NCBI GenBank assembly: GCA_029262855.1
Contig: JAJCYP010000085.1
Location: 1 to 64,000, forward strand
Direction of reading: 5' to 3'
DNA: 64,000 bases
From: Bacteroidota bacterium
GTDB lineage: Bacteria; Bacteroidota; Rhodothermia; Rhodothermales; UBA10348
Shown here: positions 36,410 to 47,067 of the stretch, one piece after another
How positions within the stretch are numbered: position 1 is the stretch's first letter
Layout: every line of letters begins with the position of its first letter
Notes under the pieces: model-generated
Database searches by the model: none
The model's input: only the letters and a program-made list of their open reading frames with translations
What the model was told of the DNA's origin: nothing
Program-made: the position numbers and the translations under genes

Positions 36410-36886
36410 ATGCCTGACCTCAGGAAAGCCGAACTCATGCGCCGCGCCATTGCCCTGGCCGTGGAAAACGTGCGGGAGGGAGGCGGGCCGTTCGCGGCCC
36501 TCGTAGTCAAGGACGGTAAGGTTGTGGCCGAAGGTGCGAACAGGGTCACCGCTGCAAACGATCCAACCGCTCACGCCGAGGTCATGGCTATCCGGGCGGC
36601 CTGCACGGCCCTGGGCACGTTCCAGTTGACGGGGTGCGACCTGTACACGACGTGCGAGCCGTGTCCCATGTGCCTGGGTGCGATCTACTGGGCGCGTCCG
36701 GACCGGGTCTTCTACGCCTCCGGAAAGCAGGACGCAGCCGAGGCCGGGTTCGACGACGCATTCATCTACGAAGAGATCGAGTTGGCGCCTGTGGATCGCC
36801 GGATTCCCATGGCCCAACTGTTGGGGATCGAGGCCGCGGCCGTTTTCGCGGCCTGGCAAGACAAGCCCGATCGGATCGCCTACTGA
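36410..36886 (+). CDS. guaD: guanine deaminase (cytidine-deaminase-like fold)
   Basis: A 158-residue zinc deaminase converting guanine to xanthine. Zinc site: His55-Ala-Glu57 in DPTAHAEVMAIR, with Cys85 and Cys88 in TCEPCPMCLGAIYWARP. The following DAAEAGFDDAFIYEEIE and a hydrophobic C-terminal tail resemble B. subtilis GuaD more than tRNA adenosine deaminase TadA. It faces the purine operon with stops 18 bases apart, and its product, xanthine, is the substrate of the Xdh genes there. The ATG at 36410 fits the family N-terminus. Confidence 0.85.
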   Translation: MPDLRKAELMRRAIALAVENVREGGGPFAALVVKDGKVVAEGANRVTAANDPTAHAEVMAIRAACTALGTFQLTGCDLYTTCEPCPMCLGAIYWARPDRVFYASGKQDAAEAGFDDAFIYEEIELAPVDRRIPMAQLLGIEAAAVFAAWQDKPDRIAY

Positions 36887-36904
36887 CGGCGTGTCCCGGA
36901 GACG

Positions 36905-37252
36905 TCAACTTCCTCGATAGGTCGAGTAGCCGAAAGGGCTCAGAAGGAGCGGCACGTGATAGTGCTGCTCGGTGTCCAGTACCACGAAATCAATCGTGAC
37001 CCGTGGATGAAAACTGGCGCGCCCCGCGTTCTCGTGGTAGTCCGCCAGCTCAAAACTGAGCCGATAGGACCCCGCACGAAGAGCATGCCCAGCCTGCAGG
37101 AGGTTGTCGATTCTGCCGTCGCTGTCCGTGGTTCCGGCACCCGCCGGATGCCAATCATTCAGATGCGCCAGATACTCCAGCCTGGCCGGAATTCCGGATG
37201 CCGGAGACCCCGAGGCCAAGTCCAGAACGTGGGTCGTGATGGGACCTTTCAT
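36905..37252 (-). CDS. uraH: 5-hydroxyisourate hydrolase (transthyretin-like)
   Basis: A 115-residue transthyretin-related enzyme hydrolysing 5-hydroxyisourate to OHCU. It starts with ITTHVLDLASGSPASGIP and ends with the family hallmark YRGS preceded by HYHVPLLLSPFGYS. Catalytic His8, the internal Arg and the C-terminal Tyr-Arg-Gly-Ser are all present. It is the last gene of the purine operon; its ATG overlaps the DUF6986 stop as ATGA. Confidence 0.93.
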   Translation of the reverse strand: MKGPITTHVLDLASGSPASGIPARLEYLAHLNDWHPAGAGTTDSDGRIDNLLQAGHALRAGSYRLSFELADYHENAGRASFHPRVTIDFVVLDTEQHYHVPLLLSPFGYSTYRGS

Positions 37253-38667
37253 GAGCCTGCTCGCTGTGCCAGAATCCTCCCGAAGGAGCGCAGCCGGATT
37301 TCGTCAAGGCTGAGCCCGGTGCGGGCCGCCTCCTCCTCGGTGATGGCGCCGCAGTTCAGCGCCCGGAGAAAATAATTCAGGAGGCCCTGCCCTGTGGCCG
37401 CGTCGTCAAAGACATCGCCGACCAGGGAGGCCTGGGCCGCCTTGTCAACGAACGCTCGGAGGCGCTCGGCGGCTGCCTCGTATCCATCCAGGAAGAACGT
37501 GTAGACGGCCGCATACCGTGCCGGCAGTTGGGCAGGATGGAGGTCCCACCCCTGATAGAAGGCATTTCGCAGAGAGTGCATACTGTCATCAAAGCCCATG
37601 CGCCAAGCGCGATGCACAGACTCGGTGTTTGAGGCCTTTTGCTCGGCCGTCAGATGCTCTCCGCGATGGGGGGCAACCGGCATGATGTTGGTTGCCCCAT
37701 CGGACAGCCACACGCCGGTCCCGGCAAGGGACACCTGCATGATGTGCCTGGCGAAGTCGCAGGCGGGATGACCCATCGCCTGGTGAGTTGCGGTTATGTC
37801 CATGCCCGCGGTGTAGTCGTAGACGCCGAAATGGGCGGCGGTGCACCGCCCTCTGGCTGCGCTGACCCAGGCCGGGAGCGTCGCGCGGCCGTCCTGCCCC
37901 AGTATCGAGGTGGCCGTCTCCACCATGAACTCCAACCCGATGCTGTCCTGGGGAAGCCCAGCGGACTCCTCGATCTGCGAGAGGGCATCGGCACAGACAC
38001 TGACCTGATCCTCGTGGGTGATCTTGGGCAGGGTGACAACGATGGACGTGGGCAGTTGTCCTTTCGTCTTCTCAAGGAGAGCCGAAAAGAATCGGTTCAG
38101 TGTGCCCAGAGAACGGGCCGCGTACTCGTCGTTGAGGGGCTTGATGCGGATCCCGATGAACGGTGGCAGGACGCCAAGCTGCATGGCCTTGGCCACCTCG
38201 CCTGCCGCCCTGACGGCCTCCGCGCGCTCCTCTTCCACGGGACGGACACCGAAACCATCCTCAAAATCGATCCTGAAGTCCTCCACCGGTTCCCTCCGAA
38301 GTTTCTCCAGGACGCGCCCGTAAACGGAGGAGGCCAGCCACGCCGCCCGGTTCGCATCCGCGGAGGGTGGGTGAGCCAACAGCGTCTCGCGCTGGGGTCC
38401 TGAGGATGGCAGGCCTTCGTGTCCGGGAAGGTGAAAGGCGTGGGCGAAGGCAATGTAGTCGGGCGCAAACGCGTCCATCATCCCCAGGGCCACCCGCCCC
38501 ATCTTCTGGGCAAGGTCAGCCTTGAAGAGCTGGGCGCCGCCATAAACCGTGTGCACGGGCTGCCGATCTGTGCGCGGGCCTGGCCTTGCCGCTGCGAACG
38601 ACCGGTTGGCGTCGGAGAGCGAGTCGAGATAGCTCTGCAGGGCGACTTCTGAAATGAGTTGACTCAC
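37249..38667 (-). CDS. DUF6986 family protein (HpcH/HpaI aldolase / CitE-like)
   Basis: A 472-residue protein resembling a family once annotated 'phosphoenolpyruvate kinase' and now DUF6986, with a CitE/HpcH/malate-synthase-type TIM barrel. Key parts: RQPVHTVYGGAQLF (35-48), EPVEDFRIDFEDGFG (126-140) with acidic metal ligands, FIGIRIKPLNDE, VVTLPKITHEDQV, GLEFMVETATSIL, FGVYDYTAGMDI, GTGVWLSDGATNIMPV and YQGWDLHPAQLPARYAAVY. It is not canonical malate synthase A: the length and motifs differ. Its place inside the purine operon suggests a role in handling ureidoglycolate or glyoxylate, but no activity is established from the sequence. Confidence 0.8.
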   Translation of the reverse strand: MSQLISEVALQSYLDSLSDANRSFAAARPGPRTDRQPVHTVYGGAQLFKADLAQKMGRVALGMMDAFAPDYIAFAHAFHLPGHEGLPSSGPQRETLLAHPPSADANRAAWLASSVYGRVLEKLRREPVEDFRIDFEDGFGVRPVEEERAEAVRAAGEVAKAMQLGVLPPFIGIRIKPLNDEYAARSLGTLNRFFSALLEKTKGQLPTSIVVTLPKITHEDQVSVCADALSQIEESAGLPQDSIGLEFMVETATSILGQDGRATLPAWVSAARGRCTAAHFGVYDYTAGMDITATHQAMGHPACDFARHIMQVSLAGTGVWLSDGATNIMPVAPHRGEHLTAEQKASNTESVHRAWRMGFDDSMHSLRNAFYQGWDLHPAQLPARYAAVYTFFLDGYEAAAERLRAFVDKAAQASLVGDVFDDAATGQGLLNYFLRALNCGAITEEEAARTGLSLDEIRLRSFGRILAQRAGS

Positions 38668-38740
38668 GGATACTCGGTTCTTTCTGTATGACCCACTTGA
38701 GGTCGAGACCGAAGATAGCCGTTCACGCGCCCGGGCCGCA

Positions 38741-39247
38741 TCAAAGGGGGTGCTCGGCGAGCATTTTCTCCAGTCTCAACCGGGTGATGCGCGCCTGCTC
38801 GGCGGCCGCGACGCCAAGTTCAACCTCCGGCGAGTTCTCCAATCGAACACGAAGCGCGGCAAGCATTTCGTCGGCGGACTTGCCGGTGGCGCAGACAATG
38901 AAAATGTGGCCGAAGCGGTCCTGGTACGACTGATTCGCGACCGCCAACTCATCGAGCACACGCCCGGAGGCGCCAGACGCCCCGGCCTGCTCGCCGCCGG
39001 CCCATCGGTCCGCCGAGAACTTCGACCGCAGGGCCTCTTTGTCGCCGATTCTCGGGTGGGCCGCAAAGGCCTCCAGGTAGTCGGACGCCTCGAGGCCGTC
39101 CCATATTTCGGCGGCCCGGTTCATCATCTGGCTGGAGTCGTCGAATGGACGGGCGTTCAACATGCGCGTGACCCATCGTTTTGAGCCGCAGCAGGCCTGG
39201 AGCAGTTCAGCCGCCCGCGGGGAGGGGAGTTCGTTCAGCCAGTTCAT
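38741..39247 (-). CDS. uraD: OHCU decarboxylase
   Basis: A 168-residue enzyme that stereospecifically decarboxylates OHCU to S-allantoin. The catalytic motif AAHPRIGDKEAL has His64, Arg66 and Asp69. An NQSYQDRFGHIFIVCATGKSADEML segment, which includes the substrate-binding FIVCATG loop, follows, and the C-terminal region (ARITRLRLEKMLAE) is typical. Its ATG overlaps the allantoicase stop. A 73-base gap separates it from the DUF6986 gene. Confidence 0.93.
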   Translation of the reverse strand: MNWLNELPSPRAAELLQACCGSKRWVTRMLNARPFDDSSQMMNRAAEIWDGLEASDYLEAFAAHPRIGDKEALRSKFSADRWAGGEQAGASGASGRVLDELAVANQSYQDRFGHIFIVCATGKSADEMLAALRVRLENSPEVELGVAAAEQARITRLRLEKMLAEHPL

Positions 39248-40176
39248 GCCAGCCGTCCGAAGACCCTCAGGCGAGCCACACCGCCATCCGGGTAGATGGA
39301 CATCCGCACGTGGTCAAACGGCCCGGACTCCTGAAGGGCATTAAAGGTCTGGACCGCGTCCGCACGCAGTTTCTCCCGACCGGTGAGGCCGTGCCAGGAA
39401 GCGGTCTTCGGGTCGCCCAGACAGCCCTCGAGGCCACAACTATCCGGGTAGTTGCCTTTGTAGAAGGCCGTATCCAGAACGACGCGTTCCAGGTGGGCGG
39501 GCCCGGCCAATCTGACTACGACCCAGTCGTGGCCCGGCCCGCGTCGCCGCCGGGTCTCCCAGCCATCGCCCATGTTGCGCGATGCATCGGGGAGCAGAAG
39601 ATTTCCGACCCGGCCAAAGTGCTCATCCGAGCAGGAGAGACACAGGCCACCGTTAGCGATCGCGCTCAGTTCAATTTCCCTGCCGTCGGTGGGCAGAAGC
39701 GGAACCACATCTCCAAACACCCGGAGCCTGGCCACGCCGCCATCGGGATAGATGTTCAGCCGGACATGGGTCCAGGGCCTGGGGTCGGCCACCGGCACGA
39801 AATTGTGGGAGTCCTCATTGATTGCCGTGCGGGGCAGGACCTCGGTCCAGGGTCCATCGCCATCGCGACCGTCCAGTGAGAAGTGGGGAGGGTGGTTGCC
39901 CCGGAAATAACTGGTGTCCACGTCCAGTCCCCGGACAATTCCGCGGAGTCCGAGCGCGATCACGGCCCAGTCATGTCCGGGACCGCGCTTGCGTCGAGAC
40001 TCCCAGCCGTCCATCCACTTGCCGTTGTCGGTATAGAGCCCTGGTTTGAAAACGGCCTCATCCTGCTTGATCAGGTTCTCCTTCTCGGCAAAGAAGTCGT
40101 CGGTGGCCTCCAGGACTTGGCCTCCCAGGCGTTCAGCGGCCAGATCAATGAGAGATGTAAACGGGGGAGTACTCAT
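39244..40176 (-). CDS. alc: allantoicase
   Basis: A 310-residue enzyme converting allantoate to ureidoglycolate plus urea. It has two tandem allantoicase repeats: GWESRRKRGPGHDW at 57-70 and GWETRRRRGPGHDW at 205-218, each followed by a YPDGGVARLRVFG strand. The repeats are complete. The ATG at 40176 overlaps the allantoinase stop as ATGA. Ureidoglycolate lyase (AllA), the usual next step, is not in the window, so the fate of ureidoglycolate is open. Confidence 0.93.
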   Translation of the reverse strand: MSTPPFTSLIDLAAERLGGQVLEATDDFFAEKENLIKQDEAVFKPGLYTDNGKWMDGWESRRKRGPGHDWAVIALGLRGIVRGLDVDTSYFRGNHPPHFSLDGRDGDGPWTEVLPRTAINEDSHNFVPVADPRPWTHVRLNIYPDGGVARLRVFGDVVPLLPTDGREIELSAIANGGLCLSCSDEHFGRVGNLLLPDASRNMGDGWETRRRRGPGHDWVVVRLAGPAHLERVVLDTAFYKGNYPDSCGLEGCLGDPKTASWHGLTGREKLRADAVQTFNALQESGPFDHVRMSIYPDGGVARLRVFGRLA

Positions 40177-41522
40177 CGGCGCAATACGGTTTGACCAATC
40201 GGCTCGTCGCGAAAGATGTCCATTCCCGGGGCAGACCCCCGTTGGAAGACGCACCTGCCCGAGAGAAACGTGTGTGTGACGGCGCCTGACAGGGTCTCTC
40301 CCGCGTAGGGAGTAATCTTGTGACGGGTATGGAGCATGTCCGCCGTGACGCGGTGCACGGCATCGGGGTCAAATACGGCCAGATCCGCGCGTCGGCCGAC
40401 TTCTATGGCGCCCCGGTCGCCCAGACCAACCAGATCGGCAGGCTGTTCGGACATCCACTCTGCCAGTCGTTCTGGATGCTCCCCGCTCAGGAGTGTCCAC
40501 ACGACGGACGGACCCAGATCCAGGCTGGAAATACCTCCCCACGCTGTGACAAACGTGCCCCTCTTGAGGTCCGGAGTGGCCGGCGAATGGTCACTGGTCA
40601 CCATGTCGATATCGCCCCCGATCAGCGCCCGCCACAGCTTGCGCCGGTTGATTACACTCCGGATAGGCGGGGCACACTTGAAGAGTGGATTAGCCGGGTC
40701 GATGCCCTCCAGGGCAAAGTAGAGGTAGTGCGGGCAGGTCTCAATGGTCAAAGGAAGACCCCGCCGTCGGGCTGAACGTATGGCGGGCAGCGCGTTCGCG
40801 GCCGCCAGATGAACGATGTGCGTCCGCGTGTGATACGTTTCGCAGAGCTCGATCAGGAGATCAATGGCATCCTGCTCCCAGCGCTGAGGCCTGGAAGCGG
40901 CCCAGGCGCGAGCGGTTGGTCCGGGCTTGCGTCCCAGGCCACCTGCCTCGGCATGCACGAGCAGGGGTTTCTCGCGTCCTGCCAGCGCACGCATGGCACA
41001 CCGCAGTTCATAGGCGCCCGAGGCCGGGAATTCAGGAATACCCGAGTCGACCATGAAAGCCTTGAGTCCGAGCACGCCGGCGTCCAGAAGGTCATCCAGC
41101 GCGCTGGAGTTTTCAGGGACGACGCCCCCGTGGAACCCGACGTCCACATGAAGTTGGCCGCGGGAGGAGGCGATCTTTGCGCGCAGGGCATCAGGCGTCG
41201 TGGTAACCGGCAGCGAGTTGAGCGGCATGTCCACCAACGTGGTGATCCCGGCCGAGGCCGCCGCACGGGTCGCAGTTTCAAAGCCCTCCCAGCCGGTACG
41301 GCCGGGCTCGTTGATGTGGACGTGGGAGTCCACGAAGCCAGGAAATAGGACGTGGTCACCGACGTCGAAGGCCCCGTCCGGAGTTTTGGCAGATGGCACC
41401 ACTTCTGTGATGAGTCCATCCACAATCAGCACCGCCCCATCGACCACGCCCGTGGGGGTGATGATGCGACGGCTTCGGATTGCAGCCGGAGCCACCCGGT
41501 TGAATGGATTGGGTGCGGCCAT
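40173..41522 (-). CDS. allB: allantoinase
   Basis: A 449-residue amidohydrolase of the allantoinase/dihydropyrimidinase family, opening allantoin to allantoate. Metal ligands: His67 and His69 in DSHVHINEPGR, the carboxylatable Lys in LGLKAFMV, His in LLVHAE and IVHLAA, and Asp in TSDHSPA. The DSHVHINEPGRTGWEGF motif points to allantoinase rather than hydantoinase or DHOase. Its ATG overlaps the xdhC stop. Confidence 0.93.
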   Translation of the reverse strand: MAAPNPFNRVAPAAIRSRRIITPTGVVDGAVLIVDGLITEVVPSAKTPDGAFDVGDHVLFPGFVDSHVHINEPGRTGWEGFETATRAAASAGITTLVDMPLNSLPVTTTPDALRAKIASSRGQLHVDVGFHGGVVPENSSALDDLLDAGVLGLKAFMVDSGIPEFPASGAYELRCAMRALAGREKPLLVHAEAGGLGRKPGPTARAWAASRPQRWEQDAIDLLIELCETYHTRTHIVHLAAANALPAIRSARRRGLPLTIETCPHYLYFALEGIDPANPLFKCAPPIRSVINRRKLWRALIGGDIDMVTSDHSPATPDLKRGTFVTAWGGISSLDLGPSVVWTLLSGEHPERLAEWMSEQPADLVGLGDRGAIEVGRRADLAVFDPDAVHRVTADMLHTRHKITPYAGETLSGAVTHTFLSGRCVFQRGSAPGMDIFRDEPIGQTVLRR

Positions 41523-42490
41523 CAGACGGCCGGCCCGGTCAGCCGATGGCGTTGAATCAGTTGGGCGGTCACGCTGATGGCAATTTCCTGGGGAGTTCGG
41601 CTTCCGATTGGCAATCCAACAGGTGCCGTGATCCGGGACAGGGCCTCGGGGCCAAAGCCGCTGTCCGCGAGAGCCTGTCGGACGCGACTTATTTTGGCCG
41701 GGGCCCCCATGAGTCCGATGAACGGGAATGGGCCGCGGAGAGCGCCGTAGAGCGACCGGAGGTCGGATGCGATGTCAGTCCCCATCGCCACGACAGAGGT
41801 CGATTCCGGATACGCGATGTGGCCCGCCGCGTCCGCGAGGTCCCGCACAGATAGACGGCGATGGGCGGCATGGTTCTTCCCGAGCGTGTCCAGATTGGCA
41901 CGGTCATCGGCGACGGTGACGTGGAAACCGGCTTCGCGAGCCACCTTCGACAGCGCCAGGGCGCAATGACCGCCGCCAAGAATCAGAAGCCGGCGCGGAT
42001 TAATCAAGGACTCGGCGTAGCTCCACGACGCCCCGTCAGCGTGATGAGACTCGGGCTCCTGCTTGCTCAGCTCAAGACCATCGGGGGTAATCAACAGCCA
42101 GGTTGGCGGCCGGTCCGGTGTATCGCCGGTGGTCGCGGCCACAATCCGACGGGCCACACCAAGATCGTCCGGCGCCAGCCTGAGGTAGACGTTGGTCTGC
42201 TCCCCGGCACAGACCAGGCCTGACGCTTGAGGGACGTCCGCGCGATGCACGAGCACTTCACGACGGGCGTCGAAATCCGCAAGCAGGAGCGCACGACTTC
42301 CAAGCTCCTGGACGCGGCGCTCCATGATGCCGCCGCCAATCGTCCCGCACGTTTCCCCATCCTCAAACACAGCCATCTTGCTCCCCGCCGTTCCGGGGGA
42401 GTGATCCGTGTGATGGACCACCAAAGCCAGAAAGACACGCTCGCCGTATTCCAATCTGGAGGCAATCTGCTCGAAGGGCCCTTCCATCAA
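41522..42490 (-). CDS. xdhC: XdhC-type molybdenum cofactor insertion protein
   Basis: A 322-residue protein required for loading the sulfurated molybdenum cofactor into xanthine dehydrogenase. The N-terminal part has CGTIGGGIMERRV, a family signature, followed by LVCAGEQTNVYL. The C-terminal Rossmann domain starts LLILGGGHCALALSKVAREA, with FIGLMGAPAKISRV near the end. It sits directly after xdhB, overlapping by 4 bases, and before allB, overlapping by 1. Confidence 0.88.
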   Translation of the reverse strand: MMEGPFEQIASRLEYGERVFLALVVHHTDHSPGTAGSKMAVFEDGETCGTIGGGIMERRVQELGSRALLLADFDARREVLVHRADVPQASGLVCAGEQTNVYLRLAPDDLGVARRIVAATTGDTPDRPPTWLLITPDGLELSKQEPESHHADGASWSYAESLINPRRLLILGGGHCALALSKVAREAGFHVTVADDRANLDTLGKNHAAHRRLSVRDLADAAGHIAYPESTSVVAMGTDIASDLRSLYGALRGPFPFIGLMGAPAKISRVRQALADSGFGPEALSRITAPVGLPIGSRTPQEIAISVTAQLIQRHRLTGPAV

Positions 42491-44799
42491 GAGTGCGCCG
42501 CAGGGCCGAGGGCCTCCGGGTCGACCTCCGCCGAGTCGAGGGCCTCCGGGTGCATACCCAGCAGGACCCTCTCGGGTGTCAGGGGAGCCGCAAAGGGAAT
42601 TTCGGCCCGCGGGGCGAAGGCCTTCATGGCATACCGGAGGGCAAAGAACACACCGATGCCGTACATGAGCGGGGGTTCGCCAACCGCCTTGTTGCCGAAG
42701 GGTCCGAGCTTTTCATCCGCGTCTTCCAGAAAGTCCACCTCCAGCACATCCGGCATGAAGAAGGCATCAGGAACCTTGTACGAGGCCAAATTGCGGGACA
42801 TCAGATGCCCGCTGTCGTCATACCGCAAATCCTCGACGGTCATCCACCCCAGACCCTGGGCCAGTGCGCCTTCAACCTGTCCCAGGTCTATTACCCGGTT
42901 GAGAGGGCGACCGATGTCGTGGACAATGTGGACCGCGTCGATGGAGTAGCGCCCCCGCACGCAGTCCATGGTCACTTCGGTGACGGCAGTGCCCCCGGCG
43001 TGGTAGGCAAAGGGCCGACCCGTCTCCTTCCTCTTGTCGAAGTGTATGTCTGGTGTGGCGAAGAAGCCGTGGGCGGAGAGGTCAGTCCGGCTGAGGTAGG
43101 TAGCACTGACCAGTGCTTGCCAGTCCAGGCCGGTCGGGCGGCCATCGATTCGCACCTCTTCGTCCCGGATCTCAACCTCTGCCTTGGCTGCGCTTCCCGT
43201 TTCGCGGCGGGCCACCAGCTTCAGCCGCTCCCCGATCTCGAGTGCCGCAGCAAGGGCGGCATTGCCGTTCAGCAGCGTGGTCGAGCTGGCCGCTGAAGGC
43301 GACATGTTGGCGACGCGGGTGGTGTTCGTGTTTTCGACCCGGATCCGTTCCGGCTGCACACCGAGTGCCCGGGAGACAATGGCAGCAATGTTGGTGGTCA
43401 GTCCCTGCCCCATCTCCACGCCACCCGTGGTCACGGACACGGAGCCGTCCGTGTAGACGTGAACCAGAGCGCCCGCCTGGTTGAGAAAGGTGGTTGTGAA
43501 CGAGATCCCAAAGGTCACCGGCATCACGGCAAACCCCTTCTTCAGGGCGAAGTGCGTCGCGTTGAAGGCGTCTACACGCTGGCGAAGGCCCGCAAGGTCA
43601 ACCTTCTTGGTCACGGCGTCCCAGGTCCTTCGTGTACGCCTGTCCTCGACCACCTGTCCGTAGGGGAACACATCGCCCGGCGAGATAAGATTGAGGGCTT
43701 GCAGATTCTCTCTGGGCACACGCATAGAGTCGGCCAGCGATGCCAGGGCTGACTCGATGACGAACATGCCCTGGGGGCCACCAAAACCTCGAAAGGCAGT
43801 GTTGGGAGGCAGGTTTGTTCGGCAGGACGCTGCGAACAGCTTCGCATTGGGCACCCGGTAGCTTCCCGTGCCGTGGTACAGCGTTCGTTCCAGTACGCCC
43901 GGCGAGAGGTCGGCGGCGGCTCCGGCATTCTGGAAGTGCCGAGCCTCGAACACCACGATGCGCCCATCGGCATCGGCACCCAGGCGGAAATCAGCCGAGT
44001 AGGGGTGACGCTTGCCGGTATGTCTGAAGTCCTCGTCCCGGCGCAATACGACCTCGACCGGAACGCCGGCAATCCGGGCGCCCACGGCCGCGAAGCACGC
44101 CCAATGGGTGGCCTGGTCCTCTTTACCTCCGAATCCGCCACCAAGCCTGCGCACCTCGACCTCGATCTGGTTGTTGTGCAAGCCCAATACCTGCGCGATG
44201 TGCTTTTGGGCGGCATACGGACTCTGCGTGGACGTCAGCACGCGGATGCGGCCGTTCTCCAAGGGCGTCGCCCGTGCCCGCTGCGTCTCCAAGTAGACAT
44301 GCTCCTGGCCACCGATGTCGCAGCGCCCCTCCACCACGTGTCGGCAATCGGGCCAGGCCGCGTCTGGACGGCCAATGGCGAATGTCCGAGTGGCACCGAT
44401 GATTTCGCCCGAATCGAATGCCGCGCGCGGATCCAGGATGGGAGGCAACTCATCCAGTTCAACCCGTACCCGTCGGGCTGCCTCCCGCGCCTGCGCGGCG
44501 GTGTCCGCTATCACCAGCGCCAGCGGGTGGCCCACGTACCGCACCAGATCCTCGGCCAAAAGCGGCTCATCGTGGATAATGGGTCCGACCTCGTTTGTGC
44601 CCGGGAGGTCCTTGGCCAGAATCACGGCGAGGACACCGGGGGCACGCCGCGCCGCCGAGATGTCCAGGCTCCGGACCCTGGCATGGGCCACGGGCGATCC
44701 AAAAACGCAGCCAAAGGCCAGATTGGAGGGACGCAGTTCATCGTCCACGAACTCCGCTTCGCCGCGGACGTGCAGGGCGCCATCGATGTTTTTCAACAT
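42487..44799 (-). CDS. xdhB: xanthine dehydrogenase, molybdopterin subunit
   Basis: A 770-residue molybdenum-cofactor subunit that hydroxylates hypoxanthine and xanthine to urate. It begins with the aldehyde-oxidase a/b hammerhead (GEAEFVDDELRPSNLAFG). Cofactor motifs include GGGFGGKEDQATHWACF, TAFRGFGGPQGMFVIES and EMGQGLTTNIAAI. The catalytic Glu is in KAVGEPPLMYGIG. It is full length for separate-subunit XdhB. Its start overlaps the end of xdhA. The tail ALDSAEVDPEALG contains a short imperfect duplication (PEALDSAEVD/PEALG). Confidence 0.93.
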   Translation of the reverse strand: MLKNIDGALHVRGEAEFVDDELRPSNLAFGCVFGSPVAHARVRSLDISAARRAPGVLAVILAKDLPGTNEVGPIIHDEPLLAEDLVRYVGHPLALVIADTAAQAREAARRVRVELDELPPILDPRAAFDSGEIIGATRTFAIGRPDAAWPDCRHVVEGRCDIGGQEHVYLETQRARATPLENGRIRVLTSTQSPYAAQKHIAQVLGLHNNQIEVEVRRLGGGFGGKEDQATHWACFAAVGARIAGVPVEVVLRRDEDFRHTGKRHPYSADFRLGADADGRIVVFEARHFQNAGAAADLSPGVLERTLYHGTGSYRVPNAKLFAASCRTNLPPNTAFRGFGGPQGMFVIESALASLADSMRVPRENLQALNLISPGDVFPYGQVVEDRRTRRTWDAVTKKVDLAGLRQRVDAFNATHFALKKGFAVMPVTFGISFTTTFLNQAGALVHVYTDGSVSVTTGGVEMGQGLTTNIAAIVSRALGVQPERIRVENTNTTRVANMSPSAASSTTLLNGNAALAAALEIGERLKLVARRETGSAAKAEVEIRDEEVRIDGRPTGLDWQALVSATYLSRTDLSAHGFFATPDIHFDKRKETGRPFAYHAGGTAVTEVTMDCVRGRYSIDAVHIVHDIGRPLNRVIDLGQVEGALAQGLGWMTVEDLRYDDSGHLMSRNLASYKVPDAFFMPDVLEVDFLEDADEKLGPFGNKAVGEPPLMYGIGVFFALRYAMKAFAPRAEIPFAAPLTPERVLLGMHPEALDSAEVDPEALGPAAHS

Positions 44800-46220
44800 G
44801 CGGCCTCGCGGTAAAGCGCCTCGAACGAAATCCGATCCGGATACAGGGTCTGGAAATGTGACCAGATCAATTGGCGCAGCAGGAGGCGCTTGTAGGCGGC
44901 CGATCCCCGGATGTCGGAGATTGGCGTGACCTCGGACTGGGCGAGATTCGCGGCTTCAACCACCGTCTGAACAGACACCAGTCGATCAAGAAGCCATGCG
45001 GAGGTCTCGGCAAGGAAGTAGGGCGTGGGGGCGACGCCGCCCGCGGTCAGCGTTGCTTCCCGAATCACACCGTTCTCGTCGCGCATCACCAGTGCACTGT
45101 TGACGCTGGCGATATCCAGAGTGCGCCTCTTGGCCACCTTCTCCCAACTGATACGGGAGCCTCGTGGAGGGCGGGAGATGGAGATGGAGGTCACGAGTTC
45201 GTCCGGGGCGAGGTCCAATTGCTTGTAGCCCAGGTAGAAATCTCGAAGTCCAACGCGCCGCGGATCCTCCGAGCGGGACTCGAGGGTCAAGGTGGTGTCC
45301 AGAGCCAGGAGGAGAATCGTCACATCGCCGATGGGGGAGGCGTTCACCAGGTTGCCGCCGACGGTCGCCCGGTTACGAATCTGGATGGAAGCGATGTCAT
45401 CCATGTAGGCCCGGATCTGTGGGATCATCGCCCGAACGTCTGGGCTCTCAGCCAATTCCTCGAACGTGGTGGCCGGTCCAAGTACAAGCGCCCCGGGCTC
45501 CGACCGTATACCGCGGAGGCCCGGGCGCGTGCCGAGCACCTCGACAGAGGATGATGTGGCGATGTCATCGCCTTGTTGCACATAGAGGTCGGTGCCTCCA
45601 GCTACGGCATAGTGTTGGCCCGCGGCTGGAGATGGCGAGTCCGTGTCGGAGGTCGCAATCGCGGAGAGTCGGGCCGGAATGCCGGAGAACCAGGCCGGAA
45701 GCTCACCGGCACCGACCAGTCCTTCCAGACCGCGTGGCACGTCCGCGAGGTGATTCCTGACCGCCTTCAGCGACCGATACCCCGTGCAGCGACAGAGGTG
45801 CCCTCCGAGGGCCGTCTTGACCGCGGCCGCATCCAGAGGCGCGCTGTGTTCCAGCAGGGCACCCGTCAGGGACAGGACGATACCCGGTGTGCAGAAACCG
45901 CACTGGGAACCGCCTTCCTCCACAATGGCCTGCTGGACGGTGGAAAGGCGAGGGCCGCGCAGCGCCTCGATGGTGACCAGGTGCTTGCCCGCCAGTTCGT
46001 GAGCCGGCATCAGGCAGGATGTCACCGCACGATACCGGACCGCATCGCCTTGCAGCTCGCCGATCAGAACCACGCAGGCGCCGCAATCACCCTCGCGGCA
46101 CCCTTCCTTCGTACCCACCATCCGGCGGGTCTCGCGGAGGTAGTCCAGGACCAACTGGCCCGCAGGCACCTGGGCCTGGACCTCGCGACGGTTCAGTATG
46201 AAGTGTAGCGGTCTACTCAT
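44793..46220 (-). CDS. xdhA: xanthine dehydrogenase, FeS/FAD subunit
   Basis: A 475-residue small subunit carrying two 2Fe-2S clusters and FAD. First cluster: Cys41, Cys46, Cys49 in GCREGDCGACVV plus Cys of TSCLMP. Second: CGFCTPG and CRCTGY. The FAD domain follows (AGGTDLYVQ, NRATVGGNLVNASPIGD). The start at 46220 gives the family N-terminus (MSRPLHFILNRREVQ) and overlaps the PuuD-like stop by 8 bases. It passes electrons from the molybdenum subunit to NAD+ or another acceptor. Confidence 0.93.
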   Translation of the reverse strand: MSRPLHFILNRREVQAQVPAGQLVLDYLRETRRMVGTKEGCREGDCGACVVLIGELQGDAVRYRAVTSCLMPAHELAGKHLVTIEALRGPRLSTVQQAIVEEGGSQCGFCTPGIVLSLTGALLEHSAPLDAAAVKTALGGHLCRCTGYRSLKAVRNHLADVPRGLEGLVGAGELPAWFSGIPARLSAIATSDTDSPSPAAGQHYAVAGGTDLYVQQGDDIATSSSVEVLGTRPGLRGIRSEPGALVLGPATTFEELAESPDVRAMIPQIRAYMDDIASIQIRNRATVGGNLVNASPIGDVTILLLALDTTLTLESRSEDPRRVGLRDFYLGYKQLDLAPDELVTSISISRPPRGSRISWEKVAKRRTLDIASVNSALVMRDENGVIREATLTAGGVAPTPYFLAETSAWLLDRLVSVQTVVEAANLAQSEVTPISDIRGSAAYKRLLLRQLIWSHFQTLYPDRISFEALYREAAC

Positions 46221-47067
46221 GGGGCGCGCTTTTCCCAAAAACAGGCTTTCGGAAGAGACGCGCAACTCCCCAGCCAAGAAGGACAAGAACGCCCAGCACC
46301 AGGGTGCTGTGGTCGCTTCCGTAGGAAATGGAGGGGTAGTGATTGGAGATCATGATGGCCACCAGCGGCACCACGATGTAGGAGTTCTGCCGTGATCGCA
46401 ATGGACCGGTACTCGCGATCCCGGCTTCGGGAGGGACGCCGGAGCGAATGCCGTTCAATAGCTTGGTCTGTGCCGGGAGAATCCGCTCCCAGACGTTGGC
46501 CGTCATGATGGAGCCGAGAACGGCGCCCACGTGGATGTAGGCGGCGCGTGCGGACATGACCTCCAGGAAGCCCAAATGCAGGGCCATGATCAGGATCAGG
46601 CCGACGGCCGCAAAAAGCCTGGGATTCTTGCCGAGTGGGGAGCGCACGAGGCGGTCGTAGACAAACCAGCCCACGAAAATGGAAAGGCTGCCTGCAACCA
46701 CCGCGGTCAGGAAGTCCTGCCCAGGCCCAATCACCAGGCCATCGACGTAGTAGACCAGCGTGATCAGGACCATGCCACTCAGCCACGTGAATCCCGCCTC
46801 GTATTTGAACCAGTGCAGCACAGGCGGGAGAAAACTGGCAAACCGCTGCTTCTCGACCCGGTACAATCCGCCACCGTGCACCATCCAGAGTGTGCCGATG
46901 ACGACTTCGTCACCGTCTGCCTTCTCCAGGCTGTCCTCCATGAAGTTGAACAGGTACGTCTGGCCGACCCACAGAATGGCCGCGAATACGTGGATCCAGC
47001 GGACGACCAGTTGGAGGAAGGACAGCAGGCTGTCTGCGTCCAGGGATATGGCTAGGGTAAATATCAT
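46213..47067 (-). CDS. PuuD-like membrane urate oxidase lacking the cytochrome c domain
   Basis: A 284-residue integral membrane protein and first gene of the purine operon. It has about seven helices. VVRWIHVFAAILWVGQTYLF, WMVHGGGLYRVEK, LHWFKYEAGFTWLSGM and SYIVVPLVAIMISNHYP are the conserved segments I recall for PuuD (membrane urate hydroxylase, formerly DUF989), including the His/Trp-rich loops. Characterised PuuD carries a C-terminal cytochrome c, whereas this protein ends at KPVFGKSAPHE with no CxxCH. It would supply the missing urate to 5-hydroxyisourate step here, as no UaZ or HpxO-type oxidase is nearby. Its electron acceptor is unknown. Confidence 0.8.
   Translation of the reverse strand: MIFTLAISLDADSLLSFLQLVVRWIHVFAAILWVGQTYLFNFMEDSLEKADGDEVVIGTLWMVHGGGLYRVEKQRFASFLPPVLHWFKYEAGFTWLSGMVLITLVYYVDGLVIGPGQDFLTAVVAGSLSIFVGWFVYDRLVRSPLGKNPRLFAAVGLILIMALHLGFLEVMSARAAYIHVGAVLGSIMTANVWERILPAQTKLLNGIRSGVPPEAGIASTGPLRSRQNSYIVVPLVAIMISNHYPSISYGSDHSTLVLGVLVLLGWGVARLFRKPVFGKSAPHE

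Follow-up and report, generated by a model that had tools for sequence, protein, structure and literature searches.

What becomes of ureidoglycolate, and of the glyoxylate derived from it, in a purine catabolism operon that has no gene for ureidoglycolate lyase (AllA)? This question is raised by the 64,000-nucleotide stretch analyzed here (the window; positions 1 to 64,000 of contig JAJCYP010000085.1, assembly GCA_029262855.1, a Bacteroidota bacterium of the Rhodothermales), in which the purine genes cover the path from guanine or xanthine to ureidoglycolate and in which one gene of the operon encodes a 472-residue protein of DUF6986, a Pfam family of unknown function. A sequence-only reading of the window had proposed that this protein either processes ureidoglycolate in place of the lyase or condenses glyoxylate with an acyl-coenzyme A (acyl-CoA). 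Combining operon membership, gene linkage, residue conservation, the predicted fold and a second pathway context, we favor the latter alternative and consider DUF6986 likely to be a stand-alone enzyme of the CitE-like/malate synthase superfamily that consumes the glyoxylate arising at the end of purine breakdown. Literature searches (DUF6986; allantoinase with malyl-CoA lyase; allantoicase with malate synthase) found no earlier assignment in the library searched.

Active site and predicted fold of DUF6986

The window protein matches PF22484 over positions 1-407 of the 408-position profile (562.9 bits, E 4.9e-169; gathering cut-off 27 bits), and its only other match is a weak one to PF01274 (MS_TIM-barrel); PF04115, the AllA family, is not matched. 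In an alignment of 57 DUF6986 sequences that are 51-62% identical to the window protein, D134, E136, D137, R174, E250, D284, P378, D421 and D422 are invariant. The conserved residues of CitE-like enzymes and malate synthases, which in the malyl-CoA lyase (MCL) of R. sphaeroides are D42, E44, D45, R76, E141, D168 and D299 (PMC3832036), map to D134-x-E136-D137, R174, E250, D284 and D422. The positions of E250 and D284 rest on profile alignments with malyl-CoA lyase, AceB and GlcB, and those of the DxED, HP and FDDAAT motifs on pattern matches with the latter two; R174 was placed by its order on the barrel strand and D422 by motif rather than by superposition, which makes these two the weaker assignments. 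By motif, FDDAATGQ lines up with MEDAATAEIS in E. coli AceB and with MEDRATLRIS in GlcB, motifs whose Asp (D631 in GlcB) serves as catalytic base, and P378 corresponds to the adenine-pocket proline P369 of AceB (PMC3112382). Judged by these alignments, DUF6986 keeps the complete active site of the superfamily.

A profile search of solved structures similarly returned malyl-CoA lyase first (E 5.8e-5 and 9.8e-5), and the PF01274 profile is matched above its cut-off by several DUF6986 orthologues on their own (27 to 34 bits). The sequence-only reading had anticipated a relation in fold to CitE and malate synthase, and this is borne out by an AlphaFold model built from the 57-row alignment (predicted local distance difference test score 87.7, predicted template modeling score 0.86), the best match of which is R. 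sphaeroides malyl-CoA lyase according to Foldseek (E 6.1e-8) as well as VIA-align (Z 27.6). VIA-align places residues 20-438 of the model on residues 2-315 of a chain of 4l9y, which contains Mg, glyoxylate and propionyl-CoA, with a root-mean-square deviation of 2.5 over 290 residues, lid included. Further matches are other malyl-CoA lyases, human CLYBL (Z 26.2), Haloferax malate synthase (24.1) and E. coli malate synthase A (23.2). DUF6986 is predicted to have the triosephosphate isomerase (TIM) barrel and C-terminal lid of the CitE-like/malyl-CoA lyase superfamily. The fold alone gives no reaction; it agrees with the residues and with the operons described below.

Compared with known systems, DUF6986 has features of several. 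It resembles R. sphaeroides Mcl1 (PDB 4L9Y) in its predicted barrel and lid, in the catalytic set D-x-E-D, R, E, D and lid D, and in that one DUF6986 clade lies in an operon of the ethylmalonyl-CoA pathway type; by contrast, it exceeds Mcl1 (15-16% identity) in length by well over 100 residues, has a helical part at the N-terminus and longer inserts, and lies mostly in purine operons, and the window operon is without the linkage to Ccr, Ecm, Mcd and Mch expected of an Mcl1-type lyase. With AceB, GlcB and Haloferax malate synthase it shares a DFED motif, the HP adenine-pocket motif, a catalytic Asp motif similar to MEDAAT in the C-terminal part and, as proposed here, a single-enzyme role in using glyoxylate; unlike them, it is without the extra domains of the A and G forms and without linkage to isocitrate lyase, and the window protein stays below the cut-off of PF01274. 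CLYBL and CitE-like lyases have the superfamily residues and the fold in common with DUF6986, whereas identity over the structural alignment is 17-18% and the pathway context differs.

The purine operon and its conservation

The DUF6986 gene is the eighth in a minus-strand run of nine genes that extends from 47067 to 36905 with overlapping or tight junctions and is followed by a convergent gene for a guanine deaminase:

46213-47067, minus strand: PuuD-like urate oxidase, N-terminal membrane-type domain only (PF06181, 246.8 bits)
44793-46286, minus strand: XdhA, xanthine dehydrogenase iron-sulfur/flavin (FeS/FAD) subunit (PF00941, PF01799; TIGR02963, 336.4 bits)
42487-44799, minus strand: XdhB, xanthine dehydrogenase molybdopterin subunit (PF20256, PF02738; TIGR02965, 763.1 bits)
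41522-42490, minus strand: XdhC-family maturation factor (PF13478, PF02625)
40173-41522, minus strand: AllB, allantoinase (TIGR03178, 482.2 bits, over the cut-off)
39244-40254, minus strand: allantoicase (TIGR02961, 383.4 bits; PF03561, 302.6 bits)
38741-39247, minus strand: UraD, 2-oxo-4-hydroxy-4-carboxy-5-ureidoimidazoline (OHCU) decarboxylase (PF09349, 144.7 bits; TIGR03180, 164.7 bits)
37249-38667, minus strand: DUF6986 protein, predicted to be of malate synthase/malyl-CoA lyase type and to act on glyoxylate (PF22484, residues, fold)
36905-37252, minus strand: UraH, 5-hydroxyisourate hydrolase (TIGR02962, 129 bits, over the cut-off)
36410-36886, plus strand: GuaD-like guanine deaminase (read from sequence; homologous neighbor in the related loci L009 and L037)

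All purine genes named in the sequence-only reading are present, GuaD as read from sequence and the others by curated family matches, and the coordinates confirm the spacing that it gave: the start of DUF6986 lies 73 bases beyond the end of uraD (38741), and the DUF6986 stop and the uraH start share four bases (37249-37252). GuaD, which it had counted in the locus, is there as a neighbor and not as a member of the operon; the flanks on the GuaD side are unrelated (a DEAD-box helicase and a pyruvate:ferredoxin oxidoreductase). Allantoicase probably starts further downstream than 40254; its first 34 residues lie outside the family match. Because the PuuD-like protein (284 residues) matches the N-terminal domain only, it may pass its electrons to a separate protein. 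A check of the region upstream of the operon for inverted or direct repeats found nothing.

Which other enzymes could deal with the end of the pathway in this organism? In family searches of the host assembly (4.74 Mb, 98.95% complete), on which all genome-level absences given here rest, we found no AllA (PF04115), no HpcH/HpaI-type lyase (PF03328, E 1e-5), no isocitrate lyase and no canonical malate synthase, PF01274 matching DUF6986 alone. Given that there is no second PF01274 or PF03328 protein, DUF6986 is the sole candidate of that kind in this genome. The sequence-only reading had seen neither AllA nor a ureidoglycolate amidohydrolase (UAH). For AllA this stands genome-wide. An amidase of the allantoate/ureidoglycolate amidohydrolase and carbamoylase superfamily (TIGR01879, 408 bits) is encoded on a different contig among unrelated neighbors (G000:C47:29873-31063), and this superfamily includes ureidoglycolate amidohydrolases; the absence of an amidohydrolase route thus holds for the locus and is not demonstrated for the genome. 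Nine of 14 other purine-type DUF6986 genomes (G018, G044, G098, G105, G106, G107, G142, G162 and G339) have no AllC/UAH-type amidase above the cut-off.

The sequence-only reading had argued that DUF6986 is not a chance neighbor, and its distribution supports this claim. In a sample of 395 genomes of the phylum, full-length DUF6986 occurs in 16 and allantoicase in nine, and all nine are among the 16 (hypergeometric probability about 2e-14, a figure that overstates the evidence because the genomes are related). We also analyzed the best 80 named loci of at least 561 relatives, selected by closeness rather than at random, which come from Bacteroidota, Acidobacteriota, Neomarinimicrobiota, Ignavibacteriota, Myxococcota, Melainabacteria and further groups, many of them from metagenome-assembled genomes; neighboring genes were assigned by single-sequence phmmer, which divergent genes can escape. 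A ureide or urate gene is present in the fetched stretch in 64 of the 80 loci and on the same strand within 2.5 kb in 56, and the position next to uraD/uraH is kept across several phyla. Allantoicase is present in 39 loci, AllC together with AllE in 15 and glyoxylate carboligase in one; with the same reservation about divergent genes, AllA was detected in none. The linkage of DUF6986 to purine genes is real and far beyond chance. It bears on the possibility that DUF6986 contributes no catalytic step to purine breakdown and is simply carried along in the operon or serves there structurally or in regulation. The 16 loci in which the fetched stretch has no ureide or urate gene would fit such a role; the presence of DUF6986 in every allantoicase genome of the phylum sample, the persistence of the uraD/uraH adjacency and the invariance of the catalytic residues all speak against it, and we regard it as very improbable.

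Other neighborhoods were also seen. Distant actinobacterial relatives (33-42% identity) adjoin guanine deaminase and a bifunctional allantoicase/ureidoglycine aminohydrolase cupin in Tsukamurella, a polysaccharide-deacetylase-family gene and an NCS1 permease in Paenarthrobacter, and urease in Gordonia. On plasmid p174 of Gordonia polyisoprenivorans (L127:11468-13155), the DUF6986 relative overlaps at its start with a gene for a PaaI family thioesterase and is followed by the urease operon, possibly reflecting a pair of lyase and thioesterase. In three acidobacterial loci without ureide genes (L044, L046 and L049) a peptidase M49-like gene (556-574 residues) lies downstream of DUF6986, in two of the three with a Uma2 family gene in between; this neighbor gave no functional clue. 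Divergent DUF6986 copies with long tree branches (38-47% identity; L018, L019 and L020, in G330, G384 and G256) lie outside ureide operons, with GuaD-like neighbors in L018 only.

The ethylmalonyl-CoA-type operons

A second context was found in five loci, from Ketobacter (L072), a gammaproteobacterium (L079) and Accumulibacter (L061, L063 and L097), in which DUF6986 heads or lies in a cluster with methylsuccinyl-CoA dehydrogenase, mesaconyl-CoA hydratase, a B12-dependent mutase and MeaB. The best solved relative of the Ketobacter acyl-CoA dehydrogenase is (2S)-methylsuccinyl-CoA dehydrogenase 8ciw (608 bits; next 308), and mesaconyl-CoA hydratase was identified by PF19315, scanned on L079. The closest curated and solved relatives of the B12 acyl-CoA mutase are methylmalonyl-CoA mutases; from its context we infer that it is an ethylmalonyl-CoA mutase. 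In the Accumulibacter loci some cluster members were scanned directly and others assigned by gene size and order, and the L063 contig ends within the cluster. In two Accumulibacter genomes (G480 and G497), crotonyl-CoA carboxylase/reductase is encoded no more than about 7 kb away on the same contig. In L061 and L097, genes for 2-methylfumaryl-CoA isomerase and for a malyl-CoA lyase of the tri-functional kind known from the 3-hydroxypropionate bi-cycle join the ethylmalonyl-CoA genes of the cluster. In a quick tree without bootstrap the five sequences form one clade (Shimodaira-Hasegawa-like approximate likelihood ratio test support 100) nested among purine-associated ones. The changes H279 to I, M298 to H and N327 to T in this clade were considered as a specificity rule and dropped, H279 being variable in purine loci.

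None of these operons contains a ureide step, and the metabolite common to the two contexts is glyoxylate. This bears directly on the idea that DUF6986 replaces AllA as a CoA-free C-N lyase converting (S)-ureidoglycolate to glyoxylate and urea, in which the Mg2+ site would bind the 2-hydroxy acid and R174 and D422 would form an acid-base pair. It was the first reading considered: DUF6986 occupies the position expected of AllA at the end of the ureide pathway, occurs with both ureidoglycolate-making routes, and is found in genomes of which 56 of 59 are without AllA and in neighborhoods where AllA went undetected; moreover, an AllC/UAH-type amidase above the cut-off is likewise lacking from most DUF6986 genomes of the allantoicase type. 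It was demoted once the ethylmalonyl-CoA-type operons were found. AllA has no sequence relation to DUF6986 and uses no CoA, whereas DUF6986 keeps an invariant lid Asp, oxyanion Arg and adenine-pocket Pro, which a CoA-free lyase would not need. In addition, an enzyme is not strictly needed, given the spontaneous decay of ureidoglycolate into glyoxylate and urea (PMC3793230). Of the three genomes with a PF04115 match, one (G486) has a strong match and carries its DUF6986 in the ethylmalonyl-CoA-type operon. The inverse pattern of AllA and DUF6986 is real but alone no proof of substitution, and we consider the replacement of AllA, and with it the processing of ureidoglycolate put forward in the sequence-only reading, unlikely. 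In contrast, because the invariant catalytic residues, the predicted malyl-CoA lyase fold and the ureide-free second context point the same way, its proposal that DUF6986 condenses glyoxylate with an acyl-CoA is well supported.

The second context raises the question of which acyl-CoA is used. DUF6986 might join glyoxylate and propionyl-CoA, as a beta-methylmalyl-CoA lyase would, or another 2-oxo acid and acyl-CoA, acetyl-CoA not being the physiological partner in the purine operon. The best fold match is a malyl/beta-methylmalyl-CoA lyase of the ethylmalonyl-CoA pathway, the step missing from the proteobacterial operon is beta-methylmalyl-CoA cleavage, and the genomes of L072 and L079 (G486 and G490) have no other HpcH/HpaI-type lyase. 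However, the window operon contains no propionyl-CoA, mesaconyl-CoA or B12-mutase genes (other purine loci were not systematically searched), and such malyl-CoA lyases accept both acyl-CoAs, which makes this partly the same hypothesis. As a separate explanation it seems to us improbable.

A proposed reaction and its meaning

Returning to acetyl-CoA as the partner in the purine context, we infer the reaction, the acyl group and the hydrolysis step from the observations above and suggest the following scheme: (i) ureidoglycolate would be opened beforehand, by spontaneous decay, a side activity of allantoicase or an unlinked amidase; (ii) Mg2+, bound via E250 and D284 with a water-mediated second shell of E136 and D137, would hold glyoxylate; (iii) R174, oriented by D134, would polarize the thioester of acetyl-CoA, and the lid residue D422 would be the base that enolizes it; (iv) the enolate would attack glyoxylate to give malyl-CoA; and (v) malyl-CoA would be hydrolyzed by DUF6986 itself, acting as a malate synthase, or by a separate thioesterase, and purine carbon would enter the tricarboxylic acid cycle as malate. 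Some allantoicases have been reported to act on ureidoglycolate too. Going further, and tentatively, DUF6986 may be a purine-dedicated malate synthase, the pull of which on glyoxylate makes ureidoglycolate lyase dispensable via spontaneous decay; alternatively, the enzyme may use ureidoglycolate as masked glyoxylate and couple urea release to malyl-CoA formation. We give this extension a small chance of being correct.

Separately regulated malate synthase paralogues are known, as in the case of E. coli AceB and GlcB. Among 59 DUF6986 genomes, 34 are without canonical malate synthase and also without isocitrate lyase above the cut-off, for which reason a glyoxylate-shunt role for DUF6986 was rejected; isocitrate lyase, where present, mostly occurs beside canonical malate synthase. 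DUF6986 is not primarily a glyoxylate-shunt enzyme. In those 34 genomes it could be the only enzyme leading from glyoxylate to malate; we do not claim that it is the only glyoxylate sink because others, such as glyoxylate carboligase and reductases, were outside the genome-wide search.

Several observations weigh against the proposed role. Canonical malate synthase is present in the other 25 of the 59 genomes, where the function would be redundant. The window protein is not a member of PF01274 (19.7 bits, cut-off 26.4). The Accumulibacter cluster also contains a malyl-CoA lyase of the Chloroflexus type (685 bits to 6kin), and the idea of DUF6986 as sole lyase there was rejected for this reason. 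No crotonyl-CoA carboxylase/reductase above the cut-off was found in G486 and G490, leaving a complete ethylmalonyl-CoA pathway unproven in these two genomes. Some loci, e.g. L049, L094 and L104, have DUF6986 in neither context. Finally, sequence cannot reveal whether an enzyme is a synthase or a lyase whose reaction ends with malyl-CoA (PMC3832036).

With the reaction suggested here, a family of unknown function gains a specific and testable prediction, and DUF6986 should not be annotated as ureidoglycolate lyase on position alone. If the prediction is correct, it would point to a second enzyme for glyoxylate in the ethylmalonyl-CoA cluster of the wastewater organism Accumulibacter, and DUF6986 would complete the recovery of purine carbon in lineages of Bacteroidota, Acidobacteriota, Neomarinimicrobiota and Myxococcota, many of which are without the glyoxylate shunt.

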